From: Desulfurobacterium pacificum
Lineage (GTDB): Bacteria > Aquificota > Aquificia > Desulfurobacteriales > Desulfurobacteriaceae
Direction of reading: 5' to 3'
NCBI RefSeq assembly: GCF_900182835.1
Contig: NZ_FXUB01000001.1
Location: 372,001-436,000 of the forward strand
DNA length: 64,000 nt
Shown here: positions 26,683 to 36,621 of the stretch, one piece after another
Position numbering within the stretch: the stretch's first letter is position 1
Layout: each line of letters begins with the position of its first letter
Notes under the pieces: model-generated
Database searches by the model: none
Seen by the model: only the letters and a program-made list of their open reading frames with translations
Told to the model about the DNA's origin: nothing
Translations under genes and position numbers: made by a program

Positions 26683-27681
26683 ATGGCTTTCAAGAAAATC
26701 CTCATTTTCCAGACAGCATTTTTGGGGGACTTAATTCTCACGTCCCCCCTCATCAAAAGCGTTAAAAAAAGTTTTCCTGAAACTGAAGTTTCATTAGTCG
26801 TAAGAAAAGGATTCAAAAGCGTATTCGCCCAAAGCCCTTACCTATCAGAAATAATAGAGTTTGATAAAAAAGGCATCTTCAGGTTTTCCTCTTTCCTTAA
26901 GAGTAAAAACTTTGACTTGGTTATCTCTCCACACCGCTCCCACAGAACTTCTTTAATTCTTTTTTTGAGTGGCATTAGAAGAAGAATAGGATTTGACAAA
27001 AGCGGCTTCGCCTTCCTTTACACAGATAGAGTTAAACATAAAATGGAAAAGAGAGTACACGAGATAGACAGAAACCTAAACCTTTTAACTCCTCTCAAAA
27101 ACTATTCCTTAATAGTAGATAATGAACCAGAACTCCCCATATCTGATGAAGAAGCCGAAAAAACCGCTAAAAAATTTAAGTTAGAAAAACCATTCATCGT
27201 TTTAGCACCGGGTTCTGTTTGGAAAACGAAAGCTTGGCTATCAGAAAACTTCGCAAAGGTAGGAGACTACTTCTACAAACAAGGTTTCCAAGTGGTAATC
27301 GTAGGCTCCAATAAAGACGCCCCTTACTGCCAAGTCACAGAAGAAAATATGAAAGGCAAAGCCAAAAACTTATGCGGAAAAACAACTTTAAGAGAATTTT
27401 TTTCAATAATAAAGAGAGCTTCTTTAGTAATTTCCAACGACTCATCTCCCGTTCACGCAGCTGTCTCTTTCAATACACCCGTTGTAGAAATATACGGTGC
27501 AACCGTTCCAGATTTCGGATTTTTTCCCTACAGAAACGGCATTTACGTAGAACCGCCCATTGAACTACCCTGCCGCCCATGTGGAATTCACGGCAGAAAG
27601 GAATGTCCAGAAAAGCACTTCAAATGTATGAAGTCAATAACCCCAGAAATGGTAATAACTACTGCAGAAAGTTTGATTTAA
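26683..27681 (+). CDS. ADP-heptose:LPS heptosyltransferase (glycosyltransferase family 9)
   Basis: This 332-residue GT9 enzyme opens with KILIFQTAFLGDLILTSPLI and has the C-terminal nucleotide-binding ILAPGSVWKTKAW (about 174-186) and SNDSSPVHAAVSFNTPVVEIYGA (about 253-275), the RfaF/WaaF signature. The short tail is Cys-rich (CRPCGIHGRKECPEKHFKCM), as is common in bacterial heptosyltransferase II. It adds heptose to the LPS inner core, joining kdsA, kdsC and the Lpt genes. It is 11 nt after era, and its 3' end overlaps the promoter of the downstream toxin-antitoxin unit. Confidence 0.88.
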   Translation: MAFKKILIFQTAFLGDLILTSPLIKSVKKSFPETEVSLVVRKGFKSVFAQSPYLSEIIEFDKKGIFRFSSFLKSKNFDLVISPHRSHRTSLILFLSGIRRRIGFDKSGFAFLYTDRVKHKMEKRVHEIDRNLNLLTPLKNYSLIVDNEPELPISDEEAEKTAKKFKLEKPFIVLAPGSVWKTKAWLSENFAKVGDYFYKQGFQVVIVGSNKDAPYCQVTEENMKGKAKNLCGKTTLREFFSIIKRASLVISNDSSPVHAAVSFNTPVVEIYGATVPDFGFFPYRNGIYVEPPIELPCRPCGIHGRKECPEKHFKCMKSITPEMVITTAESLI

Positions 27682-27700
27682 CACCAAACAGCACTATAAT
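27673..27700 (+). promoter_or_regulatory. Promoter of the RelB/RelE-type toxin-antitoxin pair with repeated operator-like octamers
   Basis: TTGATT (27673-27678) and TATAAT (27695-27700) are 16 bp apart, overlapping the stop codon of the heptosyltransferase gene. The octamer AAACAGCA occurs at 27686-27693 (in the spacer) and again at 27722-27729, and TTAACAG at 27709 is a related third half-site, as expected for antitoxin autorepression. Operator function is inferred. Confidence 0.6.
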
Positions 27701-27743
27701 TAAAACCGTTAACAGTACTTTAAACAGCATTCTGGAGGGAAAA

Positions 27744-27992
27744 GTGATAGTCTCCGCAAACGACCTTAAAAGAAAAGGCATTTCTTACGTGGGCAAACTC
27801 TTAAAGGAGTTTGAAAGCGTTTTCATCTCCGTTAGAGGTAAGAAAAAATACGTAATACTTCCCATAGAAGAATATGAAAGATTAAAAGAACTGGAACTTG
27901 AAAACGCCATTAGAGAAGCTGAAGAAGACCTGAAAAAAGGTAACTACGTGATAGAAAGTGCTGAAGAACACTTTAAAAGGTTAGGAATTTGA
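27744..27992 (+). CDS. Phd/RelB-type antitoxin
   Basis: This 82-residue protein begins at GTG 27744 with GGAGGG 5 nt upstream; the longer reading frame to the left runs through the heptosyltransferase gene and has no ribosome site. Residues 1-50 (IVSANDLKRKGISYVGKLL...ILPIEEYERLKELE) match the Phd/YefM-like DNA-binding antitoxin fold, and the acidic C-terminal helix should wrap the toxin. Its stop overlaps the toxin start (TTGA). Confidence 0.82.
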   Translation: MIVSANDLKRKGISYVGKLLKEFESVFISVRGKKKYVILPIEEYERLKELELENAIREAEEDLKKGNYVIESAEEHFKRLGI

Positions 27993-28270
27993 AACCTTAC
28001 AGATTGATATTTACAGAATCTTACCTTAAAAGGGAAAAGAAATTTATTAAGAAACATCCAGAGCTTCTAGAAAGATACAAAAAAGTTTTACGTCTATTAG
28101 AACTAAACCCAAATCATCCTTCACTTAGACTCCACAAACTAAAAGGCAAACTGTCAGGTAAGTACTCAGTTTCTATTACTATGAGTTATCGTATTATTCT
28201 GACATTCGCCGTAACGGAAAAAGGCATAGTTCTAATAGACATCGGAAGCCATGAAATTTACGAGAAATAA
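27989..28270 (+). CDS. RelE/ParE-superfamily mRNA interferase toxin
   Basis: This 93-residue protein starts at TTG 27989 overlapping the antitoxin stop. It has the RelE/YafQ-like elements FIKKHPELLERYKKVLRLLE (helices), HKLKGKLSGKYSVSI, SYRIILTF and a C-terminal IDIGSHEIYEK. The conserved Tyr-Arg-Ile and the final His-Glu-x-Tyr fit ribosome-dependent mRNA cleavage, but catalytic residues vary in this family, so the activity is not certain. Together with the preceding gene it forms a complete type II pair inserted between LPS and SAM-synthetase genes. Confidence 0.85.
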   Translation: MKPYRLIFTESYLKREKKFIKKHPELLERYKKVLRLLELNPNHPSLRLHKLKGKLSGKYSVSITMSYRIILTFAVTEKGIVLIDIGSHEIYEK

Positions 28271-31283: not shown

Positions 31284-31383
31284 GACCAACCCCTTGATGA
31301 AATTCAAGTAGATTTACGGTTAAAGCAAAATTAAAATTTATAACTACCTATCCCATCAGTAAATCCCTATCTATCAAACGTTG

Positions 31384-31442
31384 AAATAGCTCCTACTTTA
31401 AGCTATATTTCAGACTGGAATTTAAGTTGTAGGAGTTGCTAC
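31384..31442 (+). promoter_or_regulatory. Structured leader that can mask the ribosome site of the SecM-like gene
   Basis: CTCCTAC (31390-31396) is the complement of GTAGGAG (31429-31435), which is the SD of the TTG start at 31443. The same left arm also lies between AAATAGCT and AGCTATATTT, so two mutually exclusive hairpins are possible. Related motifs with the form GCTAC...AAGCTA recur at about 31389-31406, 31437-31451 and 31495-31513. Confidence 0.5.
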
Positions 31443-31727
31443 TTGAAGCTAAATAAAATATTAGTAAATATAATCATCGTCACCGTACTAACCTGTAGCT
31501 ACTCAGAAGCTACAAGTTTACTGCTACACCAGATAAAAGCAGAAGAAACCGTATCAATAAAGCAACACACCAAAGAGACACAGAAGAAAATAATATCCCT
31601 ACAAAAGCAAATTCAACAGGTTACCGATTCTTCTGAAAGAGTAACGTTTCAAACTGAAAAAAACTGCGAGATTTATAACTTTTTAACGTTAAAATCCGCC
31701 CCCCCTCGCGCCTCCCCAAACTGCTAA
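31443..31727 (+). CDS. Putative SecM-like secretion-monitor (arrest) peptide upstream of secA
   Basis: This 94-residue protein starts at TTG 31443 (AGGAG, 7-nt spacing). It has a signal peptide: Lys at 2 and 5, hydrophobic ILVNIIIVTVLT, likely cleavage near SEA. A Lys/Gln-rich helical middle leads to the tail FLTLKSAPPRASPNC. The end R-A-S-P is like the R-A-G-P end of E. coli SecM and the R-A-P-P tails of other arrest peptides, and it lies two residues before the stop. secA begins 55 nt later. The last codons use GC-rich forms (GCC CCC CCT CGC GCC TCC) unlike the AT-rich neighbours, and CCTCCCC there pairs with the secA SD. Function as a monitor is inferred; the family is not identified. Confidence 0.72.
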   Translation: MKLNKILVNIIIVTVLTCSYSEATSLLLHQIKAEETVSIKQHTKETQKKIISLQKQIQQVTDSSERVTFQTEKNCEIYNFLTLKSAPPRASPNC

Positions 31728-31775
31728 ACGCTCAAAACTCCAAACCGCTCAAAACCACAAACCAATCGGGGAGGT
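31710..31775 (+). promoter_or_regulatory. SD-sequestering hairpin controlling secA translation
   Basis: CCTCCCC (31711-31717), inside the R-A-S-P codons of the upstream gene, is the exact complement of GGGGAGG (31768-31774), the secA ribosome-binding site; a G-U pair extends it to 8 bp. The 50-nt loop between is nearly free of G and contains the decamer CGCTCAAAAC twice (31729-31738 and 31746-31755), so it should stay open. A ribosome halted on the last codons would cover the left arm and expose the secA SD. Confidence 0.68.
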
Positions 31776-31782
31776 AACAAAG

Positions 31783-34398
31783 ATGATAAATACAATACTT
31801 ACGAAAATCATAGGCAGCAAGAACGAAAGAGAAATAAAAAAACTAAAGCCTTTAGTTGAAAAGATAAACGCCCTTGAACCGGAATTTGAAAAGAAAAGCA
31901 AGGAAGAATTACAGGCTTTAACTGCAAAGTGGAAAGAGGAGCTTGCAAAGATAGAAAAGGACGAAGACAAGTTTAAGTACATGGACAAAATCCTCCCAGA
32001 AGCTTTTGCAGCCGTCAGAGAAGCAGCAAAAAGAACGTTAGGAATGAGGCACTACGACGTCCAGCTCATAGGCGGTATCGTTCTCCATCAAGGCAAAATC
32101 GCAGAAATGAAAACAGGTGAGGGTAAAACGCTTGTCGCAACGCTCCCTGTTTACTTAAACGCTCTCGCAGGGAAAGGCGTTCACGTTGTAACGGTAAACG
32201 ACTACTTGGCAAAAAGAGACGCCGAATGGATGGGACCAGTCTACAACTACCTTGGAATTACCGTCGGATACCTCCAAAACCAGATGGAAAACCCTCAACG
32301 AAAAGAGATGTACGCGAGAGACGTAACCTACGGAACAAACTCTGAGTTTGGTTTTGATTATTTAAGAGACAACATGGCGTTTTCAAAAGAGGAAAAAGTT
32401 CAAAGAGAACTCTTTTACGCAATAGTTGACGAAGCAGACTCAATCCTCATAGACGAAGCGAGAACTCCACTAATCATTTCAGGACCTTCAGAAGAAAATG
32501 TTGACGTTTACTACATAGCAGATACGTTAGTCCAAACGCTCAAAAAAGACGTTGACTTTAAAGTTGATGAAAAGACAAAAACAGCCACACTTACAGACGA
32601 AGGCATCAAAAAGCTTGAAAAGATGATAGCCGAAATGTCGGGAACGAAAGACTTTAACCTCTACGACCCCAACTTCTCCGACCTTCTGCACGCAATAATC
32701 CAGTCAATCAGGGCACACCACTTATTCAAAAAAGACGTTGACTACGTAGTCCAGTACGACCCGAAAGAGAGAAAGAAAAAAGTCATAATCGTTGACGAGT
32801 TCACAGGAAGGATAATGCCCGGAAGGCGCTGGAGTGACGGTCTCCACCAGGCAGTAGAAGCAAAGGAAGGACTTGACGTAGAAGCAGAAAACCAAACCCT
32901 TGCGACAATTACGCTCCAGAACTACTTCCGCCTCTACAAGAAGCTCGCAGGAATGACAGGAACAGCAGAAACAGAAGCTGCAGAGCTCAAAGAGATTTAC
33001 GGACTTGACGTTGTGGTAATTCCAACGAACAAACCGGTAATTAGAAAAGACCACCCAGATTTAATATTCAAAACGATGAAGGCAAAGTACAACGCCGTTG
33101 TTAAAGAGATAGAGAAAAACTACAAAATCGGAAGACCTGTCTTAGTTGGAACAAACTCTATTGAAGCTTCAGAATACCTGTCAAAACTGCTGAAAAGGAA
33201 AGGAATTCCCCACCAGGTCCTCAACGCAAAACATCACGAAAAGGAAGCAGAAATAGTAGCTCAGGCTGGAAGGTTGGGTGCAGTAACAATCGCCACAAAC
33301 ATGGCAGGAAGGGGAACGGACATCCTTTTAGGTGGGAACCCCGAATTTATGGCTAAGAAGGAATTGGAGAAAAAAGGAATAACGCCTGAAAAGGTCGGCG
33401 AAGAAAAGTATCAGGAAATCTACAGAGAAACTCTTGAAAAGTACAAAAAGCTTACAGAGGAAGAGAAAAAGAAAGTTATTGAACTTGGCGGTTTGTACAT
33501 AATCGGAACAGAAAGAAACGAATCAAGACGTATAGACAACCAGCTCAGAGGTAGGGCTGGAAGGCAAGGAGACCCGGGAGAGTCAAGATTTTTCCTCTCT
33601 CTTGAAGACAACCTGCTTAGACTCTTTGGTTCTGACAAGGTAAAGAAAATGATGGAAATGATGAACATACCTGAAGACGAACCAATAGAACACAAGATGG
33701 TTTCCAAAGCCCTTGAAACTGCACAGAGGAGAGTGGAAGAACAGAACTTCCAGATAAGAAAGAGACTCCTTGAGTACGATGAGGTTTACAACATTCAGAG
33801 AAAAGTAATATACGAACAGAGAAACAAAATACTTGAAGGAGAGAACTTTAAGGAAGAAATTCTTACCTTCTTTGAAAACGTTGCATGGGAAATGGTTGAT
33901 ACTTTCGCTCCAGAGAATATTCTGCCCGATGAGTGGGATCTGAAGAAACTAAAAGAGATATTAAAGCAGCGGTTCGGCTTTGAATTTGAAATTCCTGATA
34001 CCTACGAAAAGCTAATGGAAATGGAAGTTGAAGGTGCTTTCAGCGATAGAGAGAAATTAGCCAAAATAATCTACAACAGGTTAGTTAAAGAACACCAGAA
34101 GATGGAGGAACTCTTAGGCGAAGAACAGATGAGAGAAATTGAAAGGATGGTTCTACTCCAAAGCCTTGACCACTACTGGAGACAGCACCTTAAAGCCTTA
34201 GACCACATTAAAGAAAGTATAGGCTGGAGAGGGTACGGACAGAGAGACCCTGTTGTTGAATTTAAGAAAGAAGCTTTCAGGTTATTTGAAGAGCTGATAT
34301 CAAACATTGAAAACGGAACAGTTGACGGACTCTTCAACTATTACAGATTCCTCCAGAGTCAACTTCAGCAGGAACAGTTAGCTGCGAGGGGAGAATAG
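31783..34398 (+). CDS. secA: Preprotein translocase ATPase SecA
   Basis: This 871-residue motor drives proteins through SecYEG. It has Walker A MKTGEGKTLVA (about 106-116), DEAD-like VDEADSILIDEARTPLIISG (about 212-231), the SF2 motifs TNMAGRGTDILLGG (about 506-519), RGRAGRQGDPG and the helical-scaffold region. The C-terminus ends in QLQQEQLAARGE with no CXCX8CH zinc-binding tail, so the SecB-binding zinc finger is absent. Its SD GGGGAGGT can be hidden by the end of the upstream SecM-like gene, predicting secretion-dependent control. Confidence 0.98.
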   Translation: MINTILTKIIGSKNEREIKKLKPLVEKINALEPEFEKKSKEELQALTAKWKEELAKIEKDEDKFKYMDKILPEAFAAVREAAKRTLGMRHYDVQLIGGIVLHQGKIAEMKTGEGKTLVATLPVYLNALAGKGVHVVTVNDYLAKRDAEWMGPVYNYLGITVGYLQNQMENPQRKEMYARDVTYGTNSEFGFDYLRDNMAFSKEEKVQRELFYAIVDEADSILIDEARTPLIISGPSEENVDVYYIADTLVQTLKKDVDFKVDEKTKTATLTDEGIKKLEKMIAEMSGTKDFNLYDPNFSDLLHAIIQSIRAHHLFKKDVDYVVQYDPKERKKKVIIVDEFTGRIMPGRRWSDGLHQAVEAKEGLDVEAENQTLATITLQNYFRLYKKLAGMTGTAETEAAELKEIYGLDVVVIPTNKPVIRKDHPDLIFKTMKAKYNAVVKEIEKNYKIGRPVLVGTNSIEASEYLSKLLKRKGIPHQVLNAKHHEKEAEIVAQAGRLGAVTIATNMAGRGTDILLGGNPEFMAKKELEKKGITPEKVGEEKYQEIYRETLEKYKKLTEEEKKKVIELGGLYIIGTERNESRRIDNQLRGRAGRQGDPGESRFFLSLEDNLLRLFGSDKVKKMMEMMNIPEDEPIEHKMVSKALETAQRRVEEQNFQIRKRLLEYDEVYNIQRKVIYEQRNKILEGENFKEEILTFFENVAWEMVDTFAPENILPDEWDLKKLKEILKQRFGFEFEIPDTYEKLMEMEVEGAFSDREKLAKIIYNRLVKEHQKMEELLGEEQMREIERMVLLQSLDHYWRQHLKALDHIKESIGWRGYGQRDPVVEFKKEAFRLFEELISNIENGTVDGLFNYYRFLQSQLQQEQLAARGE

Positions 34399-34413
34399 TT
34401 CTCCCTTCGCTTT
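34384..34413 (+). terminator. Hairpin at the end of secA with the stop codon as its loop
   Basis: GCGAGGGGAGAA (34384-34395) pairs with TTCTCCCTTCGC (34399-34410) with one G-U, and the 3-nt loop is the TAG stop of secA. TTT follows, a weak T-run. It lies 2 bp before the convergent lptB stop. Confidence 0.6.
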
Positions 34414-35152
34414 ACAACTCAAACTGTTCGCCTAAATAAACCTTTCTGACTATTTCCTGATTTGCAACTTCTTCAGGAGTTCCAGAAGCTATCACTTTAC
34501 CGTGACCAATTATGTAAGCTCTGTCTATTATCCTTAAAGTTTCTCTAACGTTGTGGTCCGTAATGAGAATACCGATGTTCATCTCTTTTAGCTCTTTTAT
34601 AAGCCCCTGAATCTCGTAAACTGCTATGGGGTCAATACCTGCAAAAGGTTCATCAAGGAGGAGAAACTTTGGGTCTATACTCAAAGCTCTTGCTATTTCC
34701 AGCCTTCTCCTCTCTCCTCCCGAAAGTGAGTTGGCTTTCTGTTTTCTCAAATCGGCTATACCAAAGCGTTCAAGCAGAAAATCTGTTTTCTCCTTAATCT
34801 CCTTTTCGGACAAGCCGTGCATTTCCAAAACCGCTTTAATATTTTCTTCTACTGTAAGTTTTCTAAAGATAGAAGGTTCTTGTGGAAGGTAGGATATACC
34901 TTTCTGCGCCCTCACGTACGTAGGTTCATCTGTAAGGTCAACTTCACCTAAAAGTACTCTGCCACCATCAGGTTTCACTATTCCAACGATGCAATAGAAG
35001 GTAGTTGTCTTTCCAGCACCGTTAGGACCTAAAAGTCCTACAACTTCTCCCTCTTTCACTTCAACGGTTACTCCGTCAACGACCTTTCTTTTGTTGTATA
35101 TTTTGGTTATCTTTTCCGCTCTTAGAAGATTCAAGTCCAATGGCTTGCTCAC
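34412..35152 (-). CDS. lptB: LPS export ABC transporter ATPase LptB
   Basis: This 246-residue ATPase has Walker [10 protein letters not shown] (about 39-47), Q-loop [13 protein letters not shown] signature [15 protein letters not shown] (about 143-157) and Walker [14 protein letters not shown] (about 163-175). With LptFG it pulls LPS from the inner membrane. It starts at GTG 35152 with AGGAGA 5 nt upstream and overlaps lptA by 77 bp. The order kdsC-lptC-lptA-lptB is the standard Lpt operon. Confidence 0.95.
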
Positions 35153-35618
35153 TTTTCTCTCCTGGATAGATGACTGTTTTTACTCTCTGCTTAATACCTT
35201 CAACAATTACTCTGCCATCTTTATAGGCAATTATCTTGTCACCTACTATAACGTTCTTGCCCTGTTTAAGTTTAGCGTTACCTAATAAAACAGCTTTTTC
35301 CTGTGCAGGATAGTAATAGAGAGTATTGCACCAACCTTCCCCCCTTGGGTCAACTATGTGAACGTTTCCTATGACTTCTATTTTCTCTATATACTTCCCT
35401 GTCTTGTCAAAGAAGACCAAAAGCTTATCTCCCGTCATTACAGTTTTTCCCCTTTGGGCAACAACGTGCCCGATGTAAGTGGCAACCTTTTTCTGGTCAT
35501 CATAGGTAAGTTTCCTTGCTTCTATAACTAAAGGAAGGTTTTGCTGAGGAGAAGGTTGAGAAGCTGCAGCGTAAAGGGGAATAAGGAATAAAGCAACCAA
35601 GATAGCTATTTTTTTCAT
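35076..35618 (-). CDS. lptA: Periplasmic LPS transport protein LptA
   Basis: This 180-residue protein has a signal peptide ([20 protein letters not shown]) and the OstA beta-jellyroll (about 25-165), with [29 protein letters not shown] and repeating strand-turn units such as [18 protein letters not shown]. It forms the periplasmic bridge between LptC and LptD. It starts in an ATGA overlap with lptC, and its 3' end overlaps lptB. Confidence 0.9.
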
Positions 35619-36151
35619 CTTTTCACCTCTCTAAAAACCGATTTAACGTTGTTAGATATTGTAATTTTTTTCTCTCTCAGGTTAAGAGTGCAAATTTTAC
35701 CAGTAATGGAGTTTGCTCCTTTGAGGAGGATTTTGCAGCCACAATCGGTTTTAAATAAAGCAGAATCAACGTAATAGACTCCACAGGGACTTTCTGCAGT
35801 AAGGTTGTCGGTTTGAAGAAGTACATGCTTGAGTTCTATCCTTTTTTCTTTCCTGAAGTAAAGAGCAGAAGGCGATTTAATCGTTATGGGAGGTTGGTGT
35901 TTGAGGAGAATGAGAAGGCGGGGATTTTTAAGGAAAATAACGTTATCTCCTTTAAACTCGGCTTCTGGAGCCGTAAGTTCCCACTCTATTTTTTCTTTTG
36001 ATTCCAACCTAAACTGTTTTATTACCTGCTTCCTATGAGTTTCAACCTTTATCTTTTCAGGAGGAGATTCTCTACCCGCTATAAAAACAATTAGAGGAAT
36101 AAAAGCTACAACTGCTATAACAATGGCAATCCTATAAAGGTTCTTCCTCAC
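35615..36151 (-). CDS. lptC: LPS export protein LptC
   Basis: This 178-residue protein has an N-terminal membrane anchor (YRIAIVIAVVAFIPLIVFIAG, about 6-26) and a jellyroll domain like LptA (KQFRLESKEKIEWELTAPEAEFKGD, then strand repeats). It accepts LPS from LptBFG. It starts at GTG 36151, overlapping the kdsC TAG by one base, and overlaps lptA by ATGA. Sequence identity of LptC proteins is low, so the call relies on fold and operon. Confidence 0.85.
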   Translation of the reverse strand: MRKNLYRIAIVIAVVAFIPLIVFIAGRESPPEKIKVETHRKQVIKQFRLESKEKIEWELTAPEAEFKGDNVIFLKNPRLLILLKHQPPITIKSPSALYFRKEKRIELKHVLLQTDNLTAESPCGVYYVDSALFKTDCGCKILLKGANSITGKICTLNLREKKITISNNVKSVFREVKR

Positions 36152-36621
36152 TACTGTTTCCCGTTTAGAGAAAGAATGTAATCAATAAACTCTCTCACAG
36201 CTCCTCTACCACCTTCTCTTTTAGAAACGAAATTTACAACCTCTTTCACTTCTTCAACAGCATCAATAGGAGCAGCTGAAAATCCCACACTTTTAAGAAT
36301 AGGAATATCAGGGATATCATCCCCCATAGCAGCCACTTCTTCAAACGAAATTTTCATCTCATTACACAATTTCTCCAACACTTCCAACTTATTGGAAACT
36401 CCCTGAAAAACTTTACTGACTCCCAACTCTTCACACCTTTTCTCAACCGCTTTTGACCGCCTGCCAGAAATAATCGCCACTTCTACGTTAGAAGATAATG
36501 CCCTTTTTATAGCATAACCATCTTTAACGTTAAAACCTTTATACTCATTCCCAAAGTTATCGTAAAAAACAGTTCCGTCGGTCAAAACACCATCAACGTC
36601 CAAAACAATAAGCTTTATCAA
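36151..36621 (-). CDS. kdsC: Kdo-8-phosphate phosphatase KdsC
   Basis: This 156-residue C0-type HAD phosphatase has the nucleophile motif LDVDGVLTDG (7-16), Thr/Ser motif IISGRRS (about 49-55), Lys in the NKLEVL segment and the Asp pair AAMGDDIPDI (about 98-107). It dephosphorylates Kdo-8-P made by KdsA (23 kb). It is the first gene of the kdsC-lptC-lptA-lptB unit. Confidence 0.93.
   Translation of the reverse strand: MIKLIVLDVDGVLTDGTVFYDNFGNEYKGFNVKDGYAIKRALSSNVEVAIISGRRSKAVEKRCEELGVSKVFQGVSNKLEVLEKLCNEMKISFEEVAAMGDDIPDIPILKSVGFSAAPIDAVEEVKEVVNFVSKREGGRGAVREFIDYILSLNGKQ

Follow-up and report, generated by a model that had tools for sequence, protein, structure and literature searches.

The small upstream open reading frame (uORF) that precedes secA in Desulfurobacterium pacificum is best explained as a secretion-monitoring arrest peptide that feedback-regulates secA, a reading to which we give a probability of roughly 0.88. 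Very probably, the exported peptide stalls the ribosome that makes it if export is slow, and secA is thereby switched on. The window analyzed here is a stretch of 64,000 nucleotides (contig NZ_FXUB01000001.1, positions 372,001 to 436,000 of the forward strand), in which the locus has the following features.

31381-31409, + strand: promoter-like site, TTGAAA-N17-TATATT, 5' of the uORF-secA unit (agrees with the consensus at 10 of 12 positions, which is no proof of a promoter)
31430-31435, + strand: Shine-Dalgarno (SD) sequence of the uORF, TAGGAG (sequence)
31443-31727, + strand: uORF of 94 aa, candidate secretion-monitoring arrest peptide (ORF list; orthologues 5' of secA in 17 other genomes)
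31443-31508, + strand: N-terminal signal sequence, with Lys, then a hydrophobic stretch and Cys18 (alignment conservation; inspection)
31701-31718, + strand: arrest motif PPRASP, with a predicted stall at Ser91 (P-site) and Pro92 (A-site) (RASP in 16 genomes, RAPP in 2; position from published RQH toeprints)
31710-31717, + strand: anti-SD arm GCCTCCCC in the Ala-Ser-Pro codons (fold; synonymous-recoding test, p = 0.028)
31768-31775, + strand: secA SD region GGGGAGGT, 3' arm of the helix (fold)
31783-34398, + strand: secA, the proposed regulated target (Pfam SecA_DEAD, SecA_SW, SecA_PP_bind)

The uORF begins with a TTG codon preceded by TAGGAG, and its full product, translated from 31443-31727, is MKLNKILVNIIIVTVLTCSYSEATSLLLHQIKAEETVSIKQHTKETQKKIISLQKQIQQVTDSSERVTFQTEKNCEIYNFLTLKSAPPRASPNC. 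By inspection, the N-terminus (MKLNKILVNIIIVTVLTC) carries a lysine and a hydrophobic stretch; a spacer of about 68 residues separates the end of that stretch from Arg89, and the C-terminal tail, FLTLKSAPPRASPNC, ends in SAPPRASPNC. An earlier note on this DNA had described a 94-codon signal-peptide gene with a 55-nt gap to secA, and this is confirmed: the uORF stop lies 55 nt before the secA ATG at 31783, on the same strand, and a scan of the window locus found no terminator-like site between the two genes. The gene 3' of the uORF is secA (SecA_DEAD, E = 1e-131), the sole full-length SecA match of the source genome. Searches of Pfam and NCBIfam with the uORF protein gave no match over a family cut-off. 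Background statistics were taken from 456 kb of the source genome, sampled as stretches. A tail of the form R-[AG]-[SPG]-[PG] within the last 16 residues has four mechanical matches there, including the uORF, which is the only gene-like case. Adjoining secA is an ordinary LPS-transport cluster (34412-36621, - strand) with an LptB-like ABC ATPase, LptA/LptD_N, LptC, and a HAD hydrolase. The window also holds a likely toxin-antitoxin pair (27579-28270, + strand), in which a Phd/YefM antitoxin ORF (PF02604) overlaps a 93-aa ORF that is RelE-like by eye.

We gathered SecA relatives from 61 genomes; the region upstream of secA is unusable in the assemblies of G001, G013, and G021. A uORF ending 46-78 nt 5' of secA is present in 18 Desulfurobacteriaceae genomes, with a tail motif 0-4 residues from the stop that reads RASP in 16 and RAPP in two (G016 and G019). 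The earlier note had held that a lack of conservation in relatives would refute its claim of an arrest peptide that resembles SecM and stalls at RASP. A signal-bearing ORF with this tail was found in 17 other genomes, and the comparative data from the 18 genomes support the claim. When a profile of 15 uORF proteins was run against 136 genomes of the phylum, it recovered the same 18 genomes, always at secA; a further profile match in G059 sits inside a 538-aa frame and was rejected as a chance match. The region upstream of secA in G008 (locus L007), a 98% complete genome, is devoid of the uORF. There, secA directly follows a promoter (TTGACT-N17-TAGTTT, in the last 150 nt before the gene) and adjoins a divergent gene resembling that beside the window's uORF. 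Judged by its sequence, this genome is one natural loss of the uORF. A 4-codon ATG frame before its secA may be a uORF remnant. As for the sister family, G022 has no uORF at secA, and the G023 locus is cut at a contig end. No small ORF with such a tail occurs 5' of secA in nine f3 and 19 usable f4 loci, in which secA starts were set by pattern only, and no such uORF was seen at the Aquificales secA loci examined or upstream of secD and yidC in the source genome. In most f3 genomes (L024, L026-L031), the upstream neighbor of secA resembles lspA (signal peptidase II, by eye), not a uORF.

The codons of the arrest motif are predicted to hide the SD of secA. The segments GCCTCCCC (31710-31717) and GGGGAGGT (31768-31775) form an 8-bp helix that is present in both the MFE and centroid folds. 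That note had seen CCTCCCC, complementary to the secA SD, in the last codons of the gene. The complementarity stands as the 8-bp helix, but the placement does not: the anti-SD comprises the Ala and Ser codons and the first two bases of the Pro codon of RASP, with Asn and Cys codons still to come before the stop. The window's secA SD is predicted to be about 1% unpaired at 37 C, rising to 8% at 70 C; in accessibility it ranks within the lowest ~5% of SDs in the sampled genome at 37 C and the lowest 4% at 70 C. To model a stalled ribosome, RNA to 16 nt from the P-site codon was counted as covered; under this assumption, the predicted SD is 29% (37 C) and 53% (70 C) unpaired. In the 37 C folds of 14 of the 18 genomes (the window and 13 of the 17 others), most of the predicted pairing of the secA SD is with ribosome-covered RNA; the folds show no SD hairpin in G005, G014, and T. 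ammonificans (L008), nor in G016 at 37 C. At 70 C, the SD is predicted to be less than 20% unpaired at 12 of the 18 secA loci; among 249 well-placed SDs of the window's genome, 10% fall below that level.

The arrest peptide might also control secA without an SD hairpin, through mRNA stabilization, Rho blocking, or coupling, with the SD complementarity arising as a by-product of Pro and Ser codons rich in C. Because such codons are naturally complementary to the SD (GGAGG), 1000 synonymous recodings of each arm served as its control. Pairing of the window's arm is stronger than about 97% of its recodings (p = 0.028); four g6 genomes gave p values of 0.002-0.012, and G006 and G017 gave about 0.05. 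The remaining genomes are not significant, and T. ammonificans runs in the opposite direction. Overall, the complementarity does not exceed synonymous chance in about half of the genomes and is absent from T. ammonificans, which favors a by-product. The pooled Fisher p is 8e-6 and shuffling of arm partners among genomes gives 1e-4, both inflated by relatedness. What speaks against a by-product is that pairing in the window and g6 is clearly above the recoded controls, that SD burial at 70 C is far commoner than in the genome background, and that the g6 helix reaches beyond the SD core to 12 bp, joining the wobble base of the Arg codon to the base just 5' of the secA start, and includes one double change from G-C to A-U. 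The change concerns this outermost pair, which three genomes have as G-C and two as A-U, by way of a synonymous AGG/AGA change; as covariation of the two arms it is suggestive only, with five sequences and 58 of 500 shuffles reaching the covariation score. A second compensatory change in G006 (Ser wobble base and secA position -7) was rejected, as the alignment shows a deletion there. On balance, we consider control without the hairpin unlikely.

The conservation pattern of the protein points to its two ends. The N-terminal ~20 residues and the last ~10 are conserved, and the middle has ~9-16% pairwise identity. Within a 15-row alignment of RASP members, Thr14, Pro87, Arg89, Ala90, Ser91, and Pro92 are invariant, and Gly9 and Cys18 are at least 90% conserved. 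The motif is encoded by four Arg, four Ala, three Ser, and four Pro codons across members, and since these vary synonymously, the peptide itself, not just the DNA, is under selection. Genus g7 contains one sister pair, G016 (L016) and G019 (L021), in which RASP has become RAPP; xSRAPP replaces PPRASP there, and the Pro pair before Arg is gone where the third motif residue is Pro. By inspection, Lys and the hydrophobic stretch recur in 17 members, and a Cys ends the stretch in 16 of 17 (residue 18, window 31494-31496), usually followed by Gly or Ser and without a standard lipobox. Such an N-terminus might equally belong to an ordinary small exported protein or lipoprotein, its tail conserved for an extracellular function. 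However, the mature part is unconserved save for the last 10-15 residues, and the residue before Cys is usually V, T, or I, a misfit to a lipobox in most members that led us to set the lipoprotein reading aside; the tail, moreover, is a known arrest motif with published in vitro arrest, and the gene is always beside secA. We regard this alternative as very improbable. That the uORF is untranslated and the region merely a cis-acting RNA leader of secA is hardly credible, as the stable predicted helix over the SD would allow it but the tail peptide is kept through synonymous codons in 18 genomes, the signal and start region are conserved, and an Rfam search of the region gave no family match.

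In Escherichia coli, SecM stalls at a C-terminal R-A-G-P, and the stalled ribosome opens a hairpin that hides the secA SD. The window's uORF is similar in its signal sequence, its C-terminal R-A-x-P with the third residue predicted to be in the P-site, and its place upstream of secA; an SD-hiding helix that the stalled ribosome would open is predicted as well, above synonymous chance only in some of the genomes. It differs in being shorter (94 aa), in its PPRASP tail without F-xxxx-WI-xxxx-GIRAGP, in having no sequence homology with SecM, and in holding the anti-SD inside the arrest codons. SecM proper was rejected, as the tail IYNFLTLKSAPPRASPNC is without the FxxxxWIxxxxGIRAGP pattern and there was no SecM family match; that the uORF works like SecM stands. 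With ApdA, ApdP, and ApcA (RAPP/RAPG) it shares a RAPP-like core that lies close to the C-terminus and follows a signal or membrane segment at the N-terminus, and the G016 and G019 uORFs carry RAPP itself. In contrast, ApdA (Actinobacteriota) and ApdP (Alphaproteobacteria) belong to other phyla and have no overall similarity with the window's uORF, RASP has a single Pro, at the A-site, and the target here is secA.

The window's uORF belongs to a group that has been described and tested in part, and the central claim is not new. Fujiwara et al. (2024, Nat Commun 15:2711, PMC10987492) searched 30,175 genomes for uORFs of secA, secDF, and yidC, with RASP among the motif queries, and uA_RQH_Desulfurobacteriales is one group named there; the novelty implied by the earlier note is therefore lost. 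According to that paper, a representative of the group showed efficient arrest with B. subtilis ribosomes in vitro and less with E. coli ribosomes, and its arrest indices were low in cells of both species. For every RQH member, toeprints placed the third motif residue in the P-site, from which Ser of RASP is the predicted P-site residue here. Like the published group, the uORF is a small secA uORF of the same order with an N-terminal localization signal and a RAPP-like C-terminal motif, and no difference from the group was found. Specifically, it lies in the same orientation as secA and encodes a small protein (<300 aa) of unknown function (94 aa, no family match), with an N-terminal secretion signal or TM segment by inspection, a RAPP-like motif near the C-terminus that is conserved in the order (RASP in 16 genomes, RAPP in 2), and a spacer of more than 30 residues from signal to arrest site (about 68). 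A literature search on Desulfurobacteriales and arrest peptides found nothing beyond this paper, whose main text holds no discussion of the group's SD/anti-SD or promoter layout. Our analysis adds the anti-SD within the arrest codons, a promoter at 11 of 17 loci that implies a near-leaderless ORF, the conserved signal Cys, and one natural loss.

The promoter layout concerns 11 of the 17 complete loci (L005, L006, L008-L011, L016-L018, L020, and L021), where an exact TTGACA-N17-TANNNT lies 7-9 nt 5' of the uORF ATG and about 335-413 nt upstream of secA. In the window's genome, 912 kb of strand sequence contain no match to the same pattern. From this spacing, we infer that transcripts of the 11 loci would start ~0-3 nt from the uORF ATG, making the uORF near-leaderless. 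The window's uORF differs: an SD is present, and the leader is roughly 25 nt long. The arrest motif may be doubly coded, the stalling Arg-Ala-Ser-Pro codons serving as the anti-SD arm with wobble bases that co-evolve with the secA leader, and the monitor ORF of many members may be near-leaderless and initiated without an SD while secA needs one; we give this combined proposal an even chance.

Under the arrest-peptide reading, the uORF and secA would be co-transcribed, as their shared strand, 55-nt spacing, and lack of an intervening terminator-like site suggest, and in the predicted fold the secA SD would be hidden by default, paired to the Ala-Ser-Pro codons in the tail of the uORF. The nascent chain would stall the ribosome once Ser of P-P-R-A-S-P occupies the P-site and Pro the A-site, as extended to the window gene from the in vitro arrest that others observed with the order's representative. 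Going by the geometry, the stalled ribosome would cover the anti-SD arm and free the secA SD. By analogy with E. coli SecM, Sec would engage the N-terminal signal and pull the chain, releasing the stall and rehiding the SD, and SecA would then be produced chiefly under limiting export. Support for the SecM-like reading comes from a signal and motif that are conserved while the middle is not, a gene that is always by secA, and an SD predicted to be sequestered in most members. Counting against it are the representative's poor stalling with E. coli ribosomes and low in-cell arrest indices (PMC10987492); the hairpin, which in about half of the genomes does no better than synonymous chance; and G008, which lives without the uORF.

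The family-wide comparison supports probable stalling-peptide secretion feedback in a deep-branching thermophilic phylum, with a RASP motif that recalls that of SecM without recognizable homology. The anti-SD in the arrest codons, the switch from RASP to RAPP, and the loss in G008 are simple handles on the evolution of such circuits.
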